Source of the DNA: Lachnospiraceae bacterium
Lineage (GTDB): Bacteria > Bacillota > Clostridia > Lachnospirales > Lachnospiraceae
Assembly (NCBI GenBank): GCA_021199475.1
Contig: JAJQHZ010000003.1
Coordinates: 1 to 34,631 of the forward strand
DNA: 34,631 nucleotides
Direction: 5' to 3'
Below the pieces are notes generated by a model, which ran no database searches, was not told the DNA's origin, and worked only from the letters and a program-made list of their open reading frames with translations. Below are positions 119 through 13,312 of this stretch, one piece after another. Both the position numbers and the translations under genes were made by a program. How positions within the stretch are numbered: position 1 is the first letter of the stretch; each line of letters begins with the position of its first letter.

Positions 119-937
119 TTATTTTCTTCCCACCAGCATACGGGAATTGCCAAGCATCATCATATTAGCGCGGCTTTCCGAGCCGAACACAAGCTCCGAC
201 ATATTCACAAGACGCACCTCCTGATAGCCCATGTCCCTCAGCTTTTGGGCGAAGGCTTCCATATCGCCGTACATCTTTGGTTTCATGCAATCGTTGATGG
301 CGAATACACCGCCCTTTTTCAAAACACGCAGGCTCTCCAAAATCAGCTCATGCACATCTGACCCCATAACGTTATGGTACACATAATTGCTGATTAAGGC
401 GTCAAAGGTTTCGTCCGCAAAATCGAGTTTGTTGGCGTCTCCCTTTTGGAAAGTACACTGCGAAGCGACGCCCTCAGACGCGGCATTTTTCTCGCACAAC
501 TGCTTGCTGTAATCCCACATGGTACCCCAGTAATCAATTCCGATTACCTTTGTCTGCGGCCATGTCAGGGCGGCACGAATGCTCAGCGGGCCGGAACCGC
601 AGCCAACCTCCAGCAGCGTTCCGTTTCCGTCATAGTCCAATAGCGAGAGCATGGTCTGATGCCCCTTCTCCATCATTCCGCCGCCGCCAAAAGCATACTG
701 CCTGCGTATCCATTCCATCCAGCCGATAAAGGCCATTAGCACTATCAGCGCAATTATAAATACGATGCCAAGCGCGGTAATGTGGAAAACCGTAAACGAC
801 AAAACGGCAAGGATCAATGCCGCAAGCGCAAAGCCGCCCATCATGTAAAATACGGGATGCGACATCCACGTTCCGTAATTCTCTCCGTGGGTGCCGAGGT
901 GGATAGTGGACTGTAAAACCTTCTTCTGACGCTCCAT
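119..937 (-). CDS. Membrane-anchored class I SAM-dependent methyltransferase
   Basis: This 272-residue protein has two hydrophobic segments near its N terminus (about residues 30-75), followed by a class I methyltransferase domain. Motif I reads LLEVGCGSGPL, followed by a motif II-like VIGIDYWG and a post-motif ALISNYVYHNV. The SAM-binding Rossmann core is therefore intact. The membrane segments suggest that it acts at the inner face of the membrane, on a lipid or membrane-bound substrate, but the substrate cannot be read from sequence. The ATG at 937 has a good GGAGA ribosome binding site. It is the last complete gene of the minus-strand operon starting near 5033. The 118-bp gap to the preceding gene contains a one-mismatch copy of the operon's operator motif. 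The family call is firm; the substrate is unknown. Confidence 0.85.
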   Translation of the reverse strand: MERQKKVLQSTIHLGTHGENYGTWMSHPVFYMMGGFALAALILAVLSFTVFHITALGIVFIIALIVLMAFIGWMEWIRRQYAFGGGGMMEKGHQTMLSLLDYDGNGTLLEVGCGSGPLSIRAALTWPQTKVIGIDYWGTMWDYSKQLCEKNAASEGVASQCTFQKGDANKLDFADETFDALISNYVYHNVMGSDVHELILESLRVLKKGGVFAINDCMKPKMYGDMEAFAQKLRDMGYQEVRLVNMSELVFGSESRANMMMLGNSRMLVGRK

Positions 938-964: not shown

Positions 965-980
965 GTTTGTTTTAGCTAAC
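965..980. promoter_or_regulatory. Weak copy of the GTTAG-N6-CTAAC operator
   Basis: The plus strand reads GTTTGTTTTAGCTAAC, matching nine of the ten defined positions of the inverted repeat found at 5020, 5288 and 8522. It lies just upstream of the membrane methyltransferase start. I see no convincing -10 box at the usual distance, so it may be an accessory site or chance. Confidence 0.25.
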
Positions 981-1055: not shown

Positions 1056-1694
1056 TTATCTTCGCTTCACACATTCCGCATAGGCCAGCGTGATACGGGC
1101 GGACCTTTCCTCCAGCATCACTACATTCCAGCCGTTGGCTTCAAGAAACGCCCGGTATTCCGCCGTACTCCACTGATGTTCCAATTTGACGCCTGCAATG
1201 CGGATGATTTTCGACCATATGGCGCTGACGGCTCCTTTTTGATGGTTCACAAAGTTCGGTGCGATCAGCAGCCCGGCATCTTTCAGAACCCGGTCTATTT
1301 CCCGCAGCGCTTTCTCCGGGTTCAGAACAATGTGCAGGGCGTTGGCGATGATCACCGCGTCAAAGGAATTGTCCGCATAGGGAAGATGTTCTGCATCTGC
1401 CACCTCGAAGGTAAGATTATCAGGACAGCTGCCCTTCTTTGCTTCCCTTATCATCCCATCCGAGTAATCCGTGGCAATCATTTTCTTTGCGGCATGGGCG
1501 ACATGCTTCGCCAGCAGGCCGGGGCCGGTGGCGACCTCCAGCACGTCCATTCCCCGAATGACCTGTGGGATACGCTCATACATCAGGCCGTATGCCTTGC
1601 AGTCGCCCCGCATGGCCCTTTCATAAATCGGGGCGTAGATGTCCCATATCTTTTTATTCATCTCTGTAATCTCTCTCCATTTCATGTCCGCCAT
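1056..1694 (-). CDS. UbiE-like class I SAM-dependent methyltransferase
   Basis: This 212-residue soluble protein has a canonical methyltransferase domain. Motif I is VLEVATGPGLLAKHV, followed by MIATDYSDGMI, an acidic segment VADAEHLPYADNSFDAVI and ALHIVLNPEKALREIDRVLK. The order and spacing match the Methyltransf_11 / UbiE-type fold, which transfers a methyl group from S-adenosylmethionine to a small molecule. The start is uncertain: ATGs occur at 1694, 1685 and 1661. The last gives the typical MNKKIWDIYAPIYERAM beginning of this family and has a GGAGAG about 13 bases upstream. It is the second of three methyltransferases in the operon, lying 84 bp after the acetyltransferase gene. The substrate is unknown. 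Confidence 0.85.
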   Translation of the reverse strand: MADMKWREITEMNKKIWDIYAPIYERAMRGDCKAYGLMYERIPQVIRGMDVLEVATGPGLLAKHVAHAAKKMIATDYSDGMIREAKKGSCPDNLTFEVADAEHLPYADNSFDAVIIANALHIVLNPEKALREIDRVLKDAGLLIAPNFVNHQKGAVSAIWSKIIRIAGVKLEHQWSTAEYRAFLEANGWNVVMLEERSARITLAYAECVKRR

Positions 1695-1778: not shown

Positions 1779-2375
1779 TCATGCGCGGCTTTCCATTGTG
1801 TACATCGTTCCGCCACCCTTTATCGGCGTTTCCGCCGTTTTCTTCATGCCGCAGGAGACGTACTTTTTCACTTTCAGCTCTGTGTCTGTGTCCAGGACAC
1901 AGGGGATATTTCGCTCCCGGGCGATGCGAAACGGTTCTTCCAGCAACACACGCAAATATCCCTGCCCCTGAAATTCCCGTCGGACAGCGACCATGGAAAT
2001 GATCACATAGTCCGGCTCTTTCTGATATATCTTCTCATACGGATTTTTCATCAGCGGAAGCAGCTTTTTCAGCGACCCAAAGGGAATCTCCCGCAGGAAC
2101 CGCCATGCCATATGGAGGGACACTCGCACCATTTTCATGCCCCATTCCTTCGCTTCGCCCTTTCTCCAGTAGGCAAGATAGCCCTCCTGCTGTTCGGAGG
2201 TCGCATAGAGAACACCGAGACGATAGTAGCACTCCGTCATGATCTCCAAAGCTGTTATTGCATCCTCACGGTCAAGGCGTGTAAATAAGCCTTCACCCTC
2301 ATCATAGAACGCCCCGCCAATGCGCCTGCCGATTGTTTTTAATTCTTCGTCGGTGAGGTTTTTCAGTCGAATCAT
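1779..2375 (-). CDS. GNAT-family N-acetyltransferase
   Basis: This 198-residue protein has the GNAT acetyl-CoA-binding motif A. The strand MVAVRREFQGQGYLRVLLE carries the Q-x-x-G-x-G type pyrophosphate loop, and a later strand, NIPCVLDTDTE, ends the fold. The N-terminal half, with ECYYRLGVLYATSEQQEGYL, resembles GNAT proteins of unknown substrate common in Clostridia. Such enzymes acetylate amines on small molecules or proteins in the cytoplasm. Its ATG lies about 10 bp downstream of the ATC hydrolase gene, which points to translational coupling in the operon. It may modify the same compound as the neighbouring methyltransferases, but that is inference. Confidence 0.8.
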   Translation of the reverse strand: MIRLKNLTDEELKTIGRRIGGAFYDEGEGLFTRLDREDAITALEIMTECYYRLGVLYATSEQQEGYLAYWRKGEAKEWGMKMVRVSLHMAWRFLREIPFGSLKKLLPLMKNPYEKIYQKEPDYVIISMVAVRREFQGQGYLRVLLEEPFRIARERNIPCVLDTDTELKVKKYVSCGMKKTAETPIKGGGTMYTMESRA

Positions 2376-2385
2376 AGTACCTCCT

Positions 2386-3030
2386 CTACGTTTGTTCCTG
2401 CTCCTGATCTCCTACAAACCAGTAGTCGCAAATAGTCCCACCACCTGCCAACGTCTGCTCACGATAGAGCCTGGCATGGTACATCCCCGCCAGCAGATAA
2501 TCCATCTCGCACATCACCGGCAGGATTTCCAGATAACCGTAGGCTCTCGCGTAATCGTTTAACGGGCATCTCGTGAAATGATAGTATATGCCGGACTTGT
2601 GAAGCGTGACGTCAAAATGAAAATCCCAGGTTTTATCTCGGTACTCCGGATGTCCTTCCGCCCACTCTGCGCATTTATGGAATTTCCCTCTCAGTTTGTC
2701 CATATCTCCTGGCTTGTTGACATTCAGGCCGCCGCCCATGACCGTTCGGACGATTTTCATATCCAACAGCTCCCTGGCCATGCCCCGCATATCATCCGGC
2801 GTAATGGCTCCGTCAGCGACTTTCCAAATAGCCATGAACACAAAAGACATATAAACGTTGTGCGCCATGGGATTTTTTGCACCGATGTCCTCCGCCCGGG
2901 CCAGCATTTGCCGGTAGATGGCCTTTGCTTTCTTTATGTATTCTCTTGCGGCCTTTCGCCCATACTTTTTCGCCAACAGTCTTTTCATAAAGGGAGCAAT
3001 CATAATCCAGTATTGCCCTGTGTATTTCAT
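2386..3030 (-). CDS. L-2-amino-thiazoline-4-carboxylic acid hydrolase-family protein
   Basis: This 214-residue protein matches the ATC hydrolase family. The best evidence is the C-terminal half, with FHFTRCPLNDYARAYGYLE, then an acidic/aromatic stretch with CEMDYLLAGM, and a terminal segment with TLAGGGTICDYWF. Conserved Cys, Asp and Glu residues in these stretches are typical of the family. The founding enzyme opens a thiazoline ring to yield S-carbamoyl-cysteine. Most clostridial members are uncharacterised and sit near methyltransferases and ABC transporters, as here. The ATG at 3030 has a clear AAGGAAGGAA site. It is the fourth gene of the operon. A second, divergent member lies at 5670-6311 under a promoter with the same operator, suggesting a shared job. 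Confidence 0.75.
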   Translation of the reverse strand: MKYTGQYWIMIAPFMKRLLAKKYGRKAAREYIKKAKAIYRQMLARAEDIGAKNPMAHNVYMSFVFMAIWKVADGAITPDDMRGMARELLDMKIVRTVMGGGLNVNKPGDMDKLRGKFHKCAEWAEGHPEYRDKTWDFHFDVTLHKSGIYYHFTRCPLNDYARAYGYLEILPVMCEMDYLLAGMYHARLYREQTLAGGGTICDYWFVGDQEQEQT

Positions 3031-3106: not shown

Positions 3107-3781
3107 TTATTTGCTGTTTCGGTGCAGATACAGCCACATCAATATACTCCCGAACCATAAAACCATGCTCTCACTCATCAGGCCGTTGGTAAAAGCCAGA
3201 CGAAACGCACTGTCCGGTATAAGCAGGGTTAGCAGCTTCAACACAAGATAGAAAATCAGCGGATTGGACAAAACCACCTGCCGGGGCAGGACGCTTTGTC
3301 CACGCAATACCAGCCAGCCCCAATAGAGGTAGGGCGGCAGCATCAGCACCTCGCTCACCAGAAGGAGCCAGGAAAAATGGGAAAAGACCGCCTCTGAAAT
3401 CGGAAGGGCAGCGGAGGCGTACTCGTTCCCGCTCATCCAGGCGAAGCCATATAAAATCATGATGTAAAACAGATGCAGGCAAAGCCACGGGGTCAGGCTG
3501 AATGCAGTCAGATAGTGATAAATTCTCTGCTTTCTCTCTCCCAGAATCAAATTCCCAAGTGCAAACAGCGCAATCCCGTACAGAATAATGCCGGGGAAGG
3601 CCAGCGCCATGGCCAAATTGTTGCGCCAGGGAGCGATTTGCGCCGTCCCTGTTGTTAGCCAGGAAATTGCCCCGGAATAGGCCGTGTCGCCGTAGATCAT
3701 AAGCCAATCCCCAACGCCAAAGCACACACAGCCCAGTAGCCCGCAGAAAAGGGCGAGGGTGATCTTTTTATAGTGTGACAT
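3107..3781 (-). CDS. Multi-pass membrane protein, possibly DUF6796-like
   Basis: This 224-residue, strongly hydrophobic protein has about six or seven predicted membrane helices spread over its whole length. The N terminus reads as a signal-anchor (ALFCGLLGCVCFGVGDWLMIYG). I do not see catalytic motifs. From memory it resembles the DUF6796 group of clostridial membrane proteins, but I cannot confirm that without a search. It sits third in the operon, 26 bp after another membrane protein gene and upstream of the ATC hydrolase. A role as a transporter, sensor or membrane platform for the methyltransferases would be speculation. Confidence 0.65.
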   Translation of the reverse strand: MSHYKKITLALFCGLLGCVCFGVGDWLMIYGDTAYSGAISWLTTGTAQIAPWRNNLAMALAFPGIILYGIALFALGNLILGERKQRIYHYLTAFSLTPWLCLHLFYIMILYGFAWMSGNEYASAALPISEAVFSHFSWLLLVSEVLMLPPYLYWGWLVLRGQSVLPRQVVLSNPLIFYLVLKLLTLLIPDSAFRLAFTNGLMSESMVLWFGSILMWLYLHRNSK

Positions 3782-3806: not shown

Positions 3807-4304
3807 TTACCAAATCCAGGTCATAATCAAAGAAATAAGCAGTCCTCCCACGGCAAACACCGGCAGCATGGGCAGCATAACCTTCACATGGAACCATTTC
3901 TGGTGATACTCTCGGTCCATATGCTCCGTCCCCGGCAGGCGCACCCGTTTGATGTTGGCAAACAGCACCCAGTCGAGAAAGCAGGTGTCAAACGCGGCCA
4001 GAACAATCATGTAGCCGTACACCAGCAGAAGCCCATCTACGAAGGTTTCCGCTCCCGCCTGATGCGCCATCCACGCAAACAGGAACAGAAATGCGATGAT
4101 ACCGATGACTTTTCGGAGGATCGTGAGGAATGTCATCTTTTCCTTTGCCGCTTCCTTGTGTTGGGAAGAATAATATTGCGCCTGAATTTCCGGAGGATAA
4201 TCGCCAATGAAGGACACAGGATTGACCAGCAGCATCCCGAAAACGGACACGCCGAACACGGCGCACATCACAATGCACTCAAGAACATAGACGGAAACGC
4301 TCAT
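3807..4304 (-). CDS. Four-helix membrane protein of unknown function
   Basis: This 165-residue protein has about four hydrophobic helices: near residues 5-30, 60-80, 90-110 and 140-163. Between helices 3 and 4 lies a basic/polar loop containing RVRLPGTEHMDREYHQKW. No family is recognised with confidence. The ATG at 4304 overlaps the stop codon of the upstream methyltransferase gene in an ATGA arrangement, so translation of the two is almost certainly coupled. It and the next gene give the operon two consecutive integral membrane proteins. Confidence 0.7.
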   Translation of the reverse strand: MSVSVYVLECIVMCAVFGVSVFGMLLVNPVSFIGDYPPEIQAQYYSSQHKEAAKEKMTFLTILRKVIGIIAFLFLFAWMAHQAGAETFVDGLLLVYGYMIVLAAFDTCFLDWVLFANIKRVRLPGTEHMDREYHQKWFHVKVMLPMLPVFAVGGLLISLIMTWIW

Positions 4305-4996
4305 TGGTTATACGTCCCTTTCCGGCAAGTGAAACAAGCCACGGATTTCACAGTGCTAAACTCTACTGCCTCATACTGCCGCTCCAGCCGCTGTTTCAGA
4401 CTGTCCGCTGTTTCATAGGGTGGAGTGAAGAACCCCTTCGGCTCATAGAGATGCCGGATAAACCAATCTGTCCGGGCAGTTTCCCCGGCAACGTAAAAAC
4501 AACCGCAGAAACAGCCGCCGGGCTTTAAGACTCGAAATACCTCCCGATAAGCCGCTTCTTTATCGGGAAAAGCATGAAATCCATTGAGAGAAAGTACGAT
4601 GTCAAAGCTGCCATCCGGGAAGGGCAAATTCCCCACATCCCCTTGATGAAAGCGGACATGGGTCAGCCCGTCCCGTTTCGCCCTTTTTTGCGCACGGGAC
4701 ATCATGTCCTCAGAATAGTCCAGGCAAGTGATGTTCGCATCAGGGAGTTTTTGATAAACCGGCATGGTCAGCACGCCGGTACCCACCGGCACCTCCAGCA
4801 GCGAACCGGAGAAATCCTCCGGAATACCGGAAAGCGCACGGGACAGATATTCAACGTTTTCCGTCTGTCCCATATCCCACACCAGTCTGCACACGGCTTT
4901 GCCCAGCAGGGTAGAACAGGTAATCATACCATCATAAATAGTTGCTTCTTTACCCAATGCGCGATATGCGGATTTGATTTCCTCGTGTTTGCTCAT
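4301..4996 (-). CDS. Class I SAM-dependent methyltransferase, first gene of the operon
   Basis: This 231-residue soluble protein has the methyltransferase core. Motif I is SLLEVPVGTGVLTMPVYQ, followed by ITCLDYSEDMMSRAQ, a motif with FHQGDVGNLPFPDGSFDIV, and FRVLKPGGCFCG. A C-terminal extension contains several cysteines (CGCFYVAG, VACFTCRKG). It is the first gene after the promoter at 5040-5068, with a leader of only about 35 bases, and its stop overlaps the next start by four bases. The VPVGTG form of motif I, instead of the usual GxGxG, is common among uncharacterised clostridial homologues. The substrate is unknown. Confidence 0.87.
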   Translation of the reverse strand: MSKHEEIKSAYRALGKEATIYDGMITCSTLLGKAVCRLVWDMGQTENVEYLSRALSGIPEDFSGSLLEVPVGTGVLTMPVYQKLPDANITCLDYSEDMMSRAQKRAKRDGLTHVRFHQGDVGNLPFPDGSFDIVLSLNGFHAFPDKEAAYREVFRVLKPGGCFCGCFYVAGETARTDWFIRHLYEPKGFFTPPYETADSLKQRLERQYEAVEFSTVKSVACFTCRKGTYNQ

Positions 4997-5019: not shown

Positions 5020-5068
5020 GTTAGTGATTACTAACTCGCATTGTAACAGATATCAATGGAGAAATCAA
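5020..5068 (-). promoter_or_regulatory. Promoter and operator of the methyltransferase operon
   Basis: Read on the minus strand: a -35 box TTGATT (5063-5068), a 17-bp spacer and a -10 box TACAAT (5040-5045). Four bases later comes the inverted repeat GTTAGTAATCACTAAC (5020-5035), i.e. GTTAG-N6-CTAAC. The repeat covers the expected transcription start, so a bound protein would block initiation. The same boxes, spacing and repeat occur at 8522-8570. Confidence 0.75.
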
Positions 5069-5249
5069 TACAGAACCTGAGCGATTGCAGACCAAAGCAG
5101 AGACCACCGAACCATAATATACCACAAAAAAACGGAGCAAATGCACGGGCAGCATTCGCCCCGCACTAGCTCCACAAAAATCTGGGGAGATACCGGCGGG
5201 CCATCCTGTGAAACTCATTGTCAAATGGAGCATTTTTACTCATTGAGAG

Positions 5250-5303
5250 TTGGAGAAGAATCTGCGCATTGATATAATAGGGATGAGGTTAGCTATGTCT
5301 AAC
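5250..5303 (+). promoter_or_regulatory. Plus-strand promoter and operator before the ABC transporter stub
   Basis: TTGGAG (5250-5255), a 17-bp spacer and TATAAT (5273-5278) form a good sigma-A promoter. The inverted repeat GTTAGCTATGTCTAAC (5288-5303) follows nine bases later. It has the same GTTAG-N6-CTAAC pattern as the two minus-strand promoters at 5020 and 8522. It drives what is now only a gene remnant. Confidence 0.7.
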
Positions 5304-5333
5304 CATCTTTTGAGGAAAGCGAGGGAAATCTCT

Positions 5334-5526
5334 ATGGCAAAAAAAGAAAGCCAGGAAATCAAGCCGAAAAAGGGCCTGCCCCGCCTTATGGAGTTGGCCA
5401 TGACACAAAAAGCGCCTGATTGCTTCTGTCTGCGACAGTGTGATCCATATCGAGGATGGACGTGTACAGGAACAATATCTTTTGGAAGAAGCTGGAATTG
5501 TAAAATTGCGGGATTTTTTCTCCTGA
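5334..5526 (+). pseudogene. Internally deleted ABC transporter gene remnant
   Basis: An ATG at 5334 with a GAGGGA ribosome binding site opens a frame beginning MAKKESQEIKPKKGLPRLME, which reads like the N terminus of a clostridial ABC exporter (membrane plus ATPase domains). After about 26 codons the coding sense passes to the +1 frame. There the sequence CDSVIHIEDGRVQEQ looks like the end of an ABC ATPase domain (the D-x-V-I-x-I-x-D-G-R-V pattern after the H-loop), closing at the TGA 5524-5526. The total is 193 nt, against roughly 1700 or more for a full exporter. The simplest reading is one large internal deletion that also shifted the frame. The promoter and operator upstream are intact. 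The family call rests on two short segments. Confidence 0.5.
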
Positions 5527-5669
5527 AACAAATTACTGCCAGAAACTGCCTGAAAAGCGACTTACATCGTTTAAAATAATTACAGGCAGCTCCCGGCAGA
5601 ATAATCCGGCATGTTTCCTTCCGTTTCTTAGGGAATAAACGAAACGGTGATAAGGAAAGAACACTATCT

Positions 5670-6311
5670 CTACCCCTTCCCAGGTCTCAGAGAACAGCTT
5701 CCGTTTAACGCATACCGGCAGTCGCAGCAGTCATCCCCGTACCCCAGCGTTTTTGTCCGGTGAAATCCATTTTTCATGTAATAAGCAACGATGTAATCCA
5801 CCGCACAGATTCCCGGCAGGATGCCCTTTGCGTCAAACTTCTCCGCATAGGCGATGAATCCGCATTTCCTGATATTGATCATGAATTCATTCTCGTTAAT
5901 ATCCCTGTATTCGATTTCCCAGTCAAAGGGATGCAGCTTTCCGCTTTCCTGTCGGAGCATATGCTGCTTCGCTTTTTTCCTGAAACTGTTCAGATATGTC
6001 TTCCCGACCATGTGCAGCAGCGGCTTCGGAACGGTCAGCAGCATTTTCTCATTCATGTGCCACATAAGCTCATCCGCCTGCTTCTGATCCATCCCCAATT
6101 CCATCATCGCCTTGTACCAAGCAACATAAGATGGCGCATAAGCGTAATTGAAGGAAAATATGCTTTCCCCGATATCGGGAGTTTCTTTCTGAACTCTCCT
6201 GAACCAGGAATCGGATCTCTTTTTAAATTGTACATAAAAGTTCTTTCCATACATCTGTATAATCATTTTCCTGCTTCTTGTCATCGTCAGATGATAAATA
6301 AATTTCATCAT
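5670..6311 (-). CDS. Second ATC hydrolase-like protein
   Basis: This 213-residue protein is a distant relative of the one at 2386-3030. It shares the overall layout: a basic N terminus, an aromatic-rich middle and a C-terminal block with GICAVDYIVAYYMKNGF followed by TLGYGDDCCDCRY. The family-typical Cys and Asp residues cluster in GDDCCDCRY. The start is an ATGATG pair (6311/6308) with a TGGAGGGG site. It follows the alpha/beta hydrolase gene by 72 bp, and hairpins in that gap may lower or tune its expression. By analogy to ATC hydrolase it may open a ring or hydrolyse a C-N or C-S bond, but the actual substrate is unknown. Confidence 0.7.
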   Translation of the reverse strand: MMKFIYHLTMTRSRKMIIQMYGKNFYVQFKKRSDSWFRRVQKETPDIGESIFSFNYAYAPSYVAWYKAMMELGMDQKQADELMWHMNEKMLLTVPKPLLHMVGKTYLNSFRKKAKQHMLRQESGKLHPFDWEIEYRDINENEFMINIRKCGFIAYAEKFDAKGILPGICAVDYIVAYYMKNGFHRTKTLGYGDDCCDCRYALNGSCSLRPGKG

Positions 6312-6334
6312 TGTGCCAGCCCCTCCAGCAATTG

Positions 6335-6382
6335 TCCCGAGCCCCGCTCGGGATATAGGCCTGCCCTATGGCCGAAGGCCAT
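6335..6382. other. Two intergenic hairpins between hydrolase and ATC hydrolase genes
   Basis: TCCCGAG (6335-6341) pairs with CTCGGGA (6347-6353). A second perfect repeat is ATGGCC (6368-6373) with GGCCAT (6377-6382). The second directly follows the hydrolase stop codon on the minus strand. Neither has a minus-strand T-run, so they look like mRNA-stability or processing structures, not terminators. Confidence 0.45.
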
Positions 6383-6383
6383 T

Positions 6384-7565
6384 TTAAATGGGCAGGCTCT
6401 CCAACCAGCCGCAGATCGTATCAAGAGCCAGCTTTCCGTTGCCCACATTGCAATGGTTTTCTGCTTCTTCTTTTTCCGTAAAAAGGCGGAAGGTAAGACT
6501 TCTCACATTCGTAAACATATCAATTTCCCTGCCGATCATGTGGTAGTCGATAAAGTGATCCCTGCTCGCTCCAAGTATCAGAAGATCCTGGGTGACCTTA
6601 TCCGCGATCGGCTCCAGACTGTAATCTGCCAGCTTTCTTGCATATCCATATGCGCTGTCCGCTTCATAATCATACATCCCGTGCTTTAAGCCCCAATCGA
6701 TCATTGGCTCCTTTTTGGCTTTCGCGTTAAAAATCAGATTGACCAGTCCCTTTGCATGAAGCTTCATAAGAAGATAAAAAATCTTCCGCAAAGCCGGAGG
6801 CTGTCCGCCGATAATGACATCCAAAAATGACGGAAATACGGACCATGCCACTACCTTTGTGATACGCTTGTCAAATGCGGCCGCCCTCGGCGCAAGATAG
6901 CCGCCTAATGATACGCCGATGATTGTCACATCGGAGAGATTGAAAAAATCAAGAACTGTTTTCACAGGCTTTTCCCATTCATGTGTGAAGTGCATTCCCT
7001 GCGTGCGGATCACACCGCCCTGCCCCGGTCCCTCAAATAAATATACTTCGAAACCTTTTTCCTGCAAATACAGCAGGGAGAACAAAAATTCCTCAAAATA
7101 GCTGTCATTTCCGCCATGAAGGAGCAGCGTCCCTCTGCTTTCCCCTTCCGGCTCCACATGCATAACGGGCAGCTTCACTCCCTCATACGGCACTTCCAGC
7201 CTACTGATACGTAGATTTTCTCCTTCGAAATAATCCGCATAATACTCGTAAAAAAGAGCAGTGGCTTTCTCGTAGTACTTTTTCTTGTCAGGATCGCCGT
7301 CGTACATAAAGAACTCGCTCATACGGTAGTAAGCGATAGCATTCCCGATCCGTTCCTCCTCCATCGCCTCATCTCCGAGCGCGATCAGCTCACGCTTCCA
7401 GTCGGCGCTGTTTTTTATTCTCCCGCCGATTTTCTGAATATCCTCCAGACGCCCGCCGTCCCAATTGATGACGCGGTTGAGCTGATAATTAAAGTTCGCA
7501 TCGCCATTCAGCTTATACACGCCTTTTTTCAGAGCTAATGGCTGCGAAATATCATATTTTTTCAT
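6384..7565 (-). CDS. Alpha/beta hydrolase with helical N-terminal domain
   Basis: This 393-residue protein has a helical N-terminal cap (about 1-120) and an alpha/beta hydrolase domain. The oxyanion-loop HGG is at 150-152, the nucleophile elbow GVSLGG puts Ser at about 219, the acid is probably Asp336 in ASRDHF, and the catalytic His is at about 371 in ENHCN. The architecture resembles FrsA/DUF1100-like or 2,6-dihydropseudooxynicotine-hydrolase-type enzymes that cleave esters, C-C bonds or C-N bonds. The start was set at 7565 because it has a perfect AAGGAGG at the right distance; a longer frame begins at 7604. The gene lies 195 bp downstream of the AraC regulator and upstream of the ATC hydrolase-like gene. 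The fold is firm, the reaction unknown. Confidence 0.85.
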   Translation of the reverse strand: MKKYDISQPLALKKGVYKLNGDANFNYQLNRVINWDGGRLEDIQKIGGRIKNSADWKRELIALGDEAMEEERIGNAIAYYRMSEFFMYDGDPDKKKYYEKATALFYEYYADYFEGENLRISRLEVPYEGVKLPVMHVEPEGESRGTLLLHGGNDSYFEEFLFSLLYLQEKGFEVYLFEGPGQGGVIRTQGMHFTHEWEKPVKTVLDFFNLSDVTIIGVSLGGYLAPRAAAFDKRITKVVAWSVFPSFLDVIIGGQPPALRKIFYLLMKLHAKGLVNLIFNAKAKKEPMIDWGLKHGMYDYEADSAYGYARKLADYSLEPIADKVTQDLLILGASRDHFIDYHMIGREIDMFTNVRSLTFRLFTEKEEAENHCNVGNGKLALDTICGWLESLPI

Positions 7566-7573
7566 AAATAAAA

Positions 7574-7610
7574 GCCTCCTTGTTGATACCTTTTTATCAT
7601 ACAAGGAAGC
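7574..7610 (-). promoter_or_regulatory. Hairpin burying the hydrolase ribosome binding site
   Basis: On the minus strand GCTTCCTTGT (7610-7601) can pair at nine of ten positions with ACAAGGAGGC (7583-7574), with a 17-nt loop. The second arm contains the whole AAGGAGG Shine-Dalgarno of the hydrolase gene. In a transcript reading through from araC the site would be closed. A possible promoter (TTGAAA-N16-TATGAT) overlaps the first arm and would yield a transcript lacking it. Confidence 0.4.
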
Positions 7611-7760
7611 TCTCCGCTTTCAATTACACGCTAACACGCTATATATTTTCATACTGCCTTTACAGCAGGCGCAAAGACCTGTGCCGAATAGTCACGCCAA
7701 CTTTTCATGAAACGGTTCTGAACAGCGCGGACCAGCGGCCTGCTATTCTGAATAGCCGCA

Positions 7761-8477
7761 CTAACTTTTCAGGAAATCGCTCAGGGAGATTCCGAACATT
7801 CTCTTGCAGGTCGCAGCCAGATGGGACGGAGAGTCGAAACCTGCCATCATTGCGGCATCCGTAATATTCCCCGATTTCAACAGATGAATATAGCTCTTTC
7901 TTATTTTTTCCAGTGCCAGATATCGGCGCAGGGCGATTCCCACATTTTCCTTAAACAGATGGGAAAAACGGCTGACAGAAATCCCGGCTTCCGCCGCCAG
8001 CTTGCTTATCGTATCAGTCTCAACACTCTCATGGCTTTTTAACGTCTCAAGAGCATTCTGTATCCGCTCGTCCATGGAAAGAGAGAAATCTCCTATCCCC
8101 AGCATATTGGTGATTGCCTCGTCCACAGCCAGCAGCGAGCGGGTATTAAGCCATGCGTTTCTTATTATCTGTACTGTCTCCCCATCCAGAACAGCATAAT
8201 TCTGCCCCTTCAGATAACGACGGGAAAGTTCATTGGCGAATAAAGAAGTTTTATCGAACAGGCAGATGAGCAGTTCCCCCTTTTCCACGCAGGCTGTATG
8301 CAGAACGTCGGAATCAATGCATACTCCCTCTGCTTCAAATTCATACTGATTCACACTGCACCTGATTTTATGGGAAACTCCTATTATGATATGTGACAGT
8401 AAATGCCTGTGTTTTTCCGGTTCATGATAAGCCGCATTCAGATACAGCCTGTCGTATTGAAAAAAGCATTCCGTCAC
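7761..8477 (-). CDS. AraC-family transcriptional regulator
   Basis: This 238-residue protein has a C-terminal double helix-turn-helix typical of AraC/XylS proteins. The first recognition region is ISKLAAEAGISVSRFSHLFK and the second contains ITDAAMMAGFDSPSHLAATC, with the conserved G-F-x-S-x-S-x-x-x-x-x-x-F-K spacing. The N-terminal 130 residues would hold a cupin-like ligand-sensing domain. Translation starts at a GTG (8477) with an AAGGGGGA site. Its promoter at 8542-8570 carries the same inverted repeat as the methyltransferase operon promoter. It may control itself and both neighbouring units, although a perfect palindrome is more typical of TetR or MarR dimers than of AraC proteins. The family call is firm; the target assignment is inferred from proximity. 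Confidence 0.9.
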   Translation of the reverse strand: MTECFFQYDRLYLNAAYHEPEKHRHLLSHIIIGVSHKIRCSVNQYEFEAEGVCIDSDVLHTACVEKGELLICLFDKTSLFANELSRRYLKGQNYAVLDGETVQIIRNAWLNTRSLLAVDEAITNMLGIGDFSLSMDERIQNALETLKSHESVETDTISKLAAEAGISVSRFSHLFKENVGIALRRYLALEKIRKSYIHLLKSGNITDAAMMAGFDSPSHLAATCKRMFGISLSDFLKS

Positions 8478-8521
8478 AGTACTATCCCCCTTTTCATCCG
8501 CCTTCTAAAAATTCTTACATC

Positions 8522-8570
8522 ATTAGTTTCATCTAACTCTCATTGTAACAGATACAAGAAGATGATTCAA
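8522..8570 (-). promoter_or_regulatory. Promoter and operator of the araC-hydrolase unit
   Basis: On the minus strand: TTGAAT (8565-8570), a 17-bp spacer, TACAAT (8542-8547), then after four bases GTTAGATGAAACTAAT (8522-8537), a GTTAG-N6-CTAAY inverted repeat. Flanking bases also match the 5020-5068 promoter (TCTGTTACAATG, AGGTTCTG), so the two look like duplicated control regions. Confidence 0.75.
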
Positions 8571-12802: not shown

Positions 12803-13312
12803 ATGGCACAGAACAAAGAAGTAACAAAGGATTGTATTTTCACCGCTCTGGTTCTTCTGATGGAGCAGAAAGAATATAAGTATATAACCGTCACCGACAT
12901 TTCGCGGAAATCCGGGATATCCCGCATGACCTACTACCGCACTTATTCTTCCAAAGAAGATATTCTGGTCCAGCATTTCCGGAAAATTGCGCAGTCAATG
13001 GTCGATCAGGCGGACGGGCAGGCGGACGAGGCGCTGTACAGCTTTTACTCCTATTTTCTGGAGCACAAAAAAATGACCGAGCTGCTGAAGCAGGCGGAGC
13101 TGATGAATCTGGTCATCGACAGCTTTTCTTCTCTCACAGATTTTCTGCATCGCACCATTCATCCGGAAAATCTGAAAAGAGACACAAACAATTACGCTGC
13201 GCATTTTGAAGCAGGCGGTCTCTTCTCTATTCTGACATACTGGCTGGCGAGCGAAGTACTGGAAAGCCCGGAGGAAATGGCAAAAATCACACTGGAGATT
13301 ATGAAGAAGTGA
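12803..13312 (+). CDS. TetR/AcrR-family transcriptional regulator
   Basis: This 169-residue protein has an N-terminal TetR helix-turn-helix, ITVTDISRKSGISRMTYYRT, followed by SSKEDILVQHF, and a helical C-terminal ligand/dimer domain (TetR_C type common in Firmicutes). It starts at an ATG 14 bp after the FKBP gene, with an AAAGGA site, so both are likely one mRNA. The terminator at 13308-13335 overlaps its stop codon. It may regulate its own operon or the divergent dnaK; a GTTAG-N6-CTAAC type palindrome, which would suit a TetR dimer, is not present upstream of it. Confidence 0.88.
   Translation: MAQNKEVTKDCIFTALVLLMEQKEYKYITVTDISRKSGISRMTYYRTYSSKEDILVQHFRKIAQSMVDQADGQADEALYSFYSYFLEHKKMTELLKQAELMNLVIDSFSSLTDFLHRTIHPENLKRDTNNYAAHFEAGGLFSILTYWLASEVLESPEEMAKITLEIMKK

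Follow-up and report, generated by a model that had tools for sequence, protein, structure and literature searches.

Does a palindrome shared by three neighbouring promoters mark a private circuit of the genes around it, or a local branch of something larger? The question is raised by a 34,631-nucleotide stretch of a Lachnospiraceae bacterium genome (GenBank assembly GCA_021199475.1, contig JAJQHZ010000003.1, positions 1 to 34,631; hereafter the window), in which promoters between positions 5,020 and 8,570 carry the inverted repeat GTTAG-N6-CTAAC. The original prediction, made from the letters alone, saw here a local regulon under coordinate repression by one dimeric regulator, either the AraC-family protein encoded nearby or a TetR/MarR-type protein elsewhere. 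In our analysis the operator is real and shared, and the regulon is genome-wide and largely iron-related. We hold with good confidence that a DtxR-family repressor dependent on iron binds the palindrome as a single dimer and through it controls a genome-wide iron-starvation regulon. The locus would then most likely belong to an iron response of an established type, with no separate circuit run by the AraC gene next door.

The promoter architecture is as first described: all three promoters are sigma-70-like and have 17-bp spacers, and the palindrome follows the -10 box in each. Promoter 1 (5040..5068, minus strand; TTGATT at 5068-5063, TACAAT at 5045-5040) leads into the methyltransferase operon. 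Operator 1 (5020..5035; GTTAGTGATTACTAAC, or GTTAGTAATCACTAAC in the minus-strand reading), an exact match in the motif scan of the window, lies 4 bp downstream of this -10 box and 23 bp upstream of the gene MT1. Promoter 2 (5250..5278, plus strand; TTGGAG at 5250-5255, TATAAT at 5273-5278) is followed, 9 bases after the -10 box, by operator 2 (5288..5303, plus strand; GTTAGCTATGTCTAAC), also exact. Promoter 3 (8542..8570, minus strand; TTGAAT at 8570-8565, TACAAT at 8547-8542) has operator 3 (8522..8537; ATTAGTTTCATCTAAC, on the minus strand GTTAGATGAAACTAAT) 4 bases after its -10 box and 44 bp upstream of araC. This third site departs from the motif by one mismatch, a detail missing from the earlier claim that all three carry it, and it is exact at the equivalent position in locus L095 of genome G030. 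Promoters 1 and 3 were rightly seen as near-copies sharing TACAAT and the four-base gap; they agree at 38 of 48 positions and are therefore copies of one module, not independent instances. A possible fourth operator (965..980, minus strand; GTTAGCTAAAACAAAC, one mismatch), with no clear promoter, lies 27 bp upstream of the methyltransferase gene at 119-937. The window holds two exact sites against a mean of 0.005 in dinucleotide shuffles and four sites with at most one mismatch against 0.38, and none of 400 shuffles reached either number; with at most two mismatches there is no excess in the window (6 against 7.42 expected). Promoter 1 is identical in the window and three relatives. The -10 box of promoter 2 is identical in the window and two relatives, in which the -35 box reads TTGGCG. 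The half-sites of operator 2 are exact and its six central bases different both in L093, the one such locus fetched without the motif, and in the motif-fetched L191.

To what extent is the motif confined to these genes? A scan of the whole 3.8-Mb draft (165 contigs, the window being contig C51) returned seven exact sites, two in the window and five outside. One of the latter lies on C49 between the -35 and -10 boxes of feoA-feoB, and two are on C39 at a DUF2325-DUF3793-flavodoxin locus (Pfam and NCBIfam names). The same operator thus lies at feoAB and DUF2325/flavodoxin genes elsewhere in the genome, and the local scope of the proposed regulon has to be given up; what can be kept is one operator with coordinate control, probably repression by a dimer. 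The exact motif occurs in the genomes of 55 of 60 relatives. Within the genus it is present in 33 of 36 genomes, with 178 sites against 34 for a reversed control.

We read 163 of these 178 genus sites, the others being unfetched (mostly from G032, G034 and G035) or identical in context. Targets were assigned by tblastn with 17 reference proteins, a gene start within 500 bp downstream in either direction being required. By this count 35 sites are upstream of feo and 25 upstream of dtxR, with 41 in the union; 46 are upstream of DUF2325/DUF3793, and 81 belong to these groups when feo and dtxR are included. (An earlier clustering gave 51 and 79 for the feo/dtxR and core sets; the recount is used here.) Altogether 109 of the 163 sites precede one of the 17 reference genes, compared with none of 30 sites of a control palindrome. 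The remaining targets are ABC1-like (9), enolase (8), MT1 (6), ABC2-like (4), FecB (4), FecCD (2), NifH-like (2) and a PF04072 methyltransferase (1). The operator is accordingly found at iron-uptake genes (feo 35, FecB 4, FecCD 2 and ABC1-like 9 of 163, against 0 of 30 controls). Site tallies should not be taken as independent events, since two sites often share one promoter. Of 161 sites, 46% reached a sigma-70-like promoter score of 10 or more, as opposed to 4% of shuffles and 3% of the 30 control sites; among the 74 promoter-scoring sites the -10 box starts 6-20 bp before the site in 43 and 5-9 bp inside it in 24. GTTAG-N6-CTAAC is thus most likely the operator of an iron-responsive regulon in this genus, itself probably one of the Lachnospirales.

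The gene that recurs beside the operator also points to its reader. Many relatives have a DtxR-family gene and feoA under one and the same operator. Among 30 dtxR loci found by protein similarity, without use of the motif, and counted by hand, 10 of the 11 whose product has a KK[S/P]SVSIAM recognition helix carry the exact motif within 500 bp upstream, compared with none of the 19 with other helices (for one locus, L063, only 58 bp upstream were available). This is linkage and not specificity, because genomes with other-helix dtxR genes carry the motif elsewhere; for that reason an attempt to match helix type to operator sequence was dropped. A Fisher test on 13 of 14 against 0 of 18 loci was left unused, as it mixed in motif-fetched loci. 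P0001, the paralog on C131 of the own genome, and P0002, of the feo-linked type, each contain the two DtxR Pfam domains in about 130 residues, and P0001 matches the structures of MntR (1on1, residues 9-117, E 1.2e-14) and IdeR. The Cys-x2-Glu-His stretch of IdeR, whose residues we take to be metal ligands, is kept in 35 of 36 aligned DtxR-family proteins, P0001 and P0002 included. In the register given by the alignment, 27 of 30 DtxR proteins have Val or Ile where IdeR has Gln43.

The operator itself also resembles DtxR-family sites. According to PMC8464063, the 19-mer iron box of DtxR and IdeR, TTAGGTTAGSCTAACCTAA, is occupied by one dimer on repeats 1 and 3 and another on repeats 2 and 4, and single-dimer binding occurs with the consensus TTAGGNNNNCCTAA. 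The first of these sequences holds TTAG-N6-CTAA at positions 1 and 6 and the second holds it too, so that the spacing is that of the present motif, in which the TTAG and CTAA half-sites, presumably one per dimer subunit, are likewise 6 bp apart. The likeness to the actinobacterial box extends to the position over promoters, the iron-uptake targets and the dtxR gene adjoining in many relatives. However, here there is one dimer site and not two overlapping ones (no conserved TTAG/CTAA pair lies within 10 bp of the genus sites), an outer G/C pair is conserved and the inner one is missing, and the linked proteins have about 130 residues, against 226-233 for DtxR and IdeR chains, with Val or Ile at the Gln43 position. 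A connection between the last change and the operator is only suggestive, because base contacts are reported, in the abstract of the same paper, not to be required for IdeR recognition. MntR, a short manganese regulator of the DtxR family, is closer in length and domain content and is the best PDB sequence match of P0001, but the proteins considered here have Cys-x2-Glu-His as in IdeR and their targets are iron genes. Judged on these features, the regulator most likely belongs to the DtxR family.

A number of observations weigh against this reading. Two of the seven exact sites of the own genome (on C122 and C164) have no assigned target, and in the genus no reference gene follows 54 of the 163 sites. 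If up to one mismatch is allowed, the motif occurs 20 times in the own genome and the reversed control 73 times, and an unrelated palindrome, GATTGN6CAATC, is found 196 times in the same 36 genus genomes, against 178. Raw motif counts were consequently rejected as support; since another palindrome is as numerous and the one-mismatch matches fall below the control, the count alone proves nothing and the location does. Among 14 loci of families elsewhere in the order, 5 (L032, L035, L037, L040 and L044) have the site next to feo, DUF2325 or flavodoxin. The inner G/C pair of TTAGG...CCTAA is absent (among the genus sites, 3% have G there), for which reason we file the motif as a variant operator and not as a canonical IdeR box. 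The feo-linked 'KK' dtxR gene was not found in the window's own assembly. Its two DtxR paralogs (42% on C131 and 29% on C65) are both unlinked; the one on C131 has no motif within 500 bp upstream, and the one on C65 has a one-mismatch site. Genome G035 has three exact sites and no DtxR match, while G001, G023 and G024 have a DtxR match and no exact site. Finally, the operator is absent upstream of MT1 in two more distant relatives (70% and 51% identity).

The DtxR-like gene on C65 (L023 2290-4695) has an altered ligand pattern and adjoins an open reading frame (ORF) that by eye resembles a heavy-metal P-type ATPase. Inverted repeats lie near its promoter, and the one-mismatch site is upstream.

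Among the other candidate readers, a Fur-family metalloregulator survives best, though we regard it as unlikely. PMC6311696 describes Fur as the iron regulator of C. difficile, a case alike in being an iron response of a clostridial bacterium and different in regulator family. The own genome has one FUR-family protein, and G033 has two operators at 45-67 bp ahead of an ORF judged Fur-like by eye. However, the own FUR gene adjoins an ORF resembling rubrerythrin, by eye a PerR-like context, and it is dtxR that is repeatedly found next to the operator (25 of 163 sites; fur was not part of the tally). The Fur box, TGATAATNATTATCA, is unlike GTTAG-N6-CTAAC, which the DtxR geometry fits.

A TetR- or MarR-type repressor encoded elsewhere and sensing a small molecule, the second candidate of the original prediction, is somewhat less likely still. 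A palindrome in this promoter position would suit such a dimer, and in L047 and L048 ORFs that resemble TetR by eye neighbour both the site and ABC genes. Yet many targets are iron genes, and no TetR/MarR-like protein was seen by eye among the neighbour-cluster representatives, for which no family search was made. The TetR-family protein of the window itself (12803-13312, TetR_C_8) has no site with at most two mismatches within 5 kb. The linkage support is little and less than that for the DtxR family.

We consider it improbable that the palindrome is read by the AraC protein (7761-8477) as regulator of a local regulon, the candidate which that prediction named first. Its gene is inside the cluster and has an operator 44 bp upstream. 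However, the motif occurs in 55 of 60 genomes, with feo and DUF2325 genes among its locations, as against 7 of 60 for an AraC ortholog; the presence of the motif at feo in genomes with no AraC ortholog largely refutes the proposal. AraC-family sites are usually direct repeats. The operator is directly upstream in 2 of 11 aligned AraC loci (the window and L095 of G030) and absent there in the other nine; in L093, L094 and L097 the AraC gene follows other genes and the operator is further upstream. The closest AraC proteins (81-97%) come from loci on contigs of metagenome-assembled genomes labelled Clostridiales, Lachnospiraceae, Ruminococcus and Oscillospiraceae. The AraC gene of the window looks like a target of the operator. 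That the motif might be nothing but a promoter-associated repeat or duplicated DNA, as the near-identity of promoters 1 and 3 and the nearly identical MT1 promoter of three close relatives (where operator conservation says little) might suggest, is the most improbable explanation of all, given that the six central bases vary and the half-sites stay at the ABC promoter of L093, fetched without the motif, and given the bias in gene content against 0 of 30 controls.

Returning to a DtxR-family repressor, the following scheme can be proposed. With ample iron, a dimer loaded with Fe2+ would occupy the 16-bp palindrome, which covers the start site or the -10 box, and would thereby block RNA polymerase. 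Under iron shortage it would dissociate, allowing joint expression of feoAB, the DUF2325/DUF3793/flavodoxin genes, importers of the siderophore type and the accessory operons of the window. The motif, its promoters, its linkage to genes, its partial conservation and its geometry are observed here; the DtxR protein as binder, iron as signal and repression as outcome are what we infer. The three or four sites of the window would then be local members of the genome-wide regulon, with AraC as a second-tier target and perhaps a local activator. Copying of promoter modules with the operator between gene blocks for iron acquisition also appears to have taken place.

Lachnospiraceae are a dominant gut family in which iron control seems little described; judging by titles and the beginnings of abstracts, none of the papers among the matches listed deals with a DtxR-type iron regulon in this family. 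If the proposed reading is true, a 16-bp box would tie gut genes of unknown role (DUF2325, DUF3793, ATC hydrolases and several methyltransferases) to iron acquisition, and this is testable in culturable relatives.

The ABC transporter stub (5334..5600, plus strand) behind promoter 2 has a history of its own. Up to about 5417 it reads as the opening codons of a YbtP-like ABC half-transporter, and from there as the 3' end of an ECF-type ATPase region. Positions 5201-5417, comprising promoter, operator and 5' end, match L191 10056-9841 and L093 20563-20348, and positions 5417-5600 match L191 1896-1713 and L093 14651-14463; the two matches are separated by 7,944 bases in L191 and 5,696 in L093. 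The L191 operon contains two ABC half-transporters, an AraC-like gene and then Trep_Strep, CbiQ and the ABC ATPase of an ECF-type transporter. Both half-transporter genes are long in L191; L093 has the first at full length and a shorter ORF for the second. An intact pair of half-transporters is not found in the window, which has the 5' end only. Since the two flanks match the ends of the L191 operon, the stub is, as judged from these alignments, the remnant of a deletion of about 6-8 kb in a YbtPQ-like importer and ECF-type operon, with promoter and operator remaining. Among the matches listed, the best single half-transporter chains for the L191 proteins are YbtP (6p6i_A, 1.2e-99) and YbtQ (6p6i_B, 2.8e-92), with IrtA also among the best; full-length eukaryotic ABC proteins score higher because they match twice. 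The likeness to the YbtPQ and IrtAB siderophore importers is thus that of the L191 half-transporters, whereas the window keeps a deletion remnant only.

The remaining genes around the operators are all on the minus strand. Operator 1 is followed by MT1, a class I S-adenosylmethionine (SAM) methyltransferase (4301..4996, Pfam Methyltransf_25). Then come H165, a 165-residue protein with no match in the Pfam search (3807..4304), a DUF6796 protein (3107..3781, PF20599), ATC-hydrolase family protein 1 (2386..3030, PF14196) and a weakly assigned GNAT-like acetyltransferase (1779..2375; PF00583, 20.9 bits against a cut-off of 20.7). Two further class I SAM methyltransferases are MT2 (1056..1694, Methyltransf_11) and MT3 (119..937, Methyltransf_31 among others). 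Operator 3 is followed by the AraC-family regulator (7761..8477, PF12833/PF00165), the alpha/beta hydrolase ABH (6384..7568, PF12697/PF00561) and ATC-hydrolase family protein 2 (5670..6311, PF14196). The two PF14196 paralogs (2386-3030 and 5670-6311) thus sit in operator-controlled gene blocks.

Operator conservation upstream of these genes is partial. For MT1 it was first judged on motif-fetched loci, which is circular, and was repeated on loci fetched by protein alone; the exact operator then lies 23 bp upstream in three of five relatives (95-96% identity). This is modest evidence, because the whole promoter is nearly identical in these three. In motif-fetched loci the exact site is about 25 bp upstream of the MT3 homolog of G012 (L225, 61% over residues 1-150), 23-24 bp upstream of H165 in two 90% relatives (a third, at 33%, has no operator upstream), about 52 bp upstream of ABH in L189 and about 205 bp upstream of the DUF6796 relative in L198. 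L189 is the single case among 16 ABH rows, the remaining 15 having no exact operator within 500 bp upstream. The AraC gene has the exact operator upstream in 1 of 14 rows of relatives, and it is also seen in L095. Duplicate rows (L168 = L098, L171 = L092) number two for ABH and one for AraC. Exact operators also precede relatives of the GNAT (33%) at 80 bp, of ATC-hydrolase protein 1 at 411 bp and of MT2 at 452 bp. Since several of these loci were motif-fetched, the distances and not the frequencies carry weight; for relatives of MT3, H165, ABH and AraC they are about 23-52 bp.

It is tempting to speculate on a wider scheme, which we put forward tentatively and regard as rather doubtful as a whole. 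A single-dimer DtxR operator RGTTAG-N6-CTAACY might define an order-wide regulon, its inner G/C, which Gln43 reads in IdeR, having been lost together with that residue in the regulators. The same box might drive uptake, an iron-sparing switch (flavodoxin, pyruvate formate-lyase, enolase, NifH-like/FecBCD) and mobile cassettes including the methyltransferase, ATC-hydrolase and AraC block of the window. The substrates of these cassettes may be thiazoline-type metallophores that YbtPQ-like importers scavenge from other bacteria. It is the family name alone that prompts the guess of ATC hydrolases opening the thiazoline rings of metallophores.

Several minor observations concern individual sites. 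At C164:8683-8698 (minus strand) a strong promoter and an exact operator face the 3' end of a MATE-like-looking ORF, with no gene seen downstream. The idea of an iron-regulated small RNA at C164:8683 (L019 5684) is not supported, as the stretch is not conserved; matches of 31 to 58 bases are present in 3 of 60 genomes besides the own one. Sites with at most one mismatch on C34, C26 and C42 were set aside by eye, the one on C34 being a CIRCE-like match. One-mismatch operators lie upstream of pyruvate formate-lyase-type ORFs in L090 (11770), L091 (14452), L092 (18533) and L168 (5877), the Pfam assignment being for L168 only; no such gene is downstream of the exact genus sites tallied. These sites would fit a switch away from iron-rich pyruvate oxidation. 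An exact operator about 66 bp upstream of an enolase ORF is found in four of L092 12184, L093 12841, L095 12089, L099 4148 and L091 12900. In the last of these it is just upstream of a longer ORF call, and enolase is Pfam-confirmed for L092. A NifH-like gene (Fer4_NifH in L095 5223-12029) is downstream of a one-mismatch operator in L095 and in L094 (7654), and in L095 it is followed by ORFs that by eye resemble a FecBCD-type transporter. Apparently, a nitrogenase-like module is part of the iron regulon. In L232 two exact operators (1440-1473) lie upstream of a NifH-like gene.

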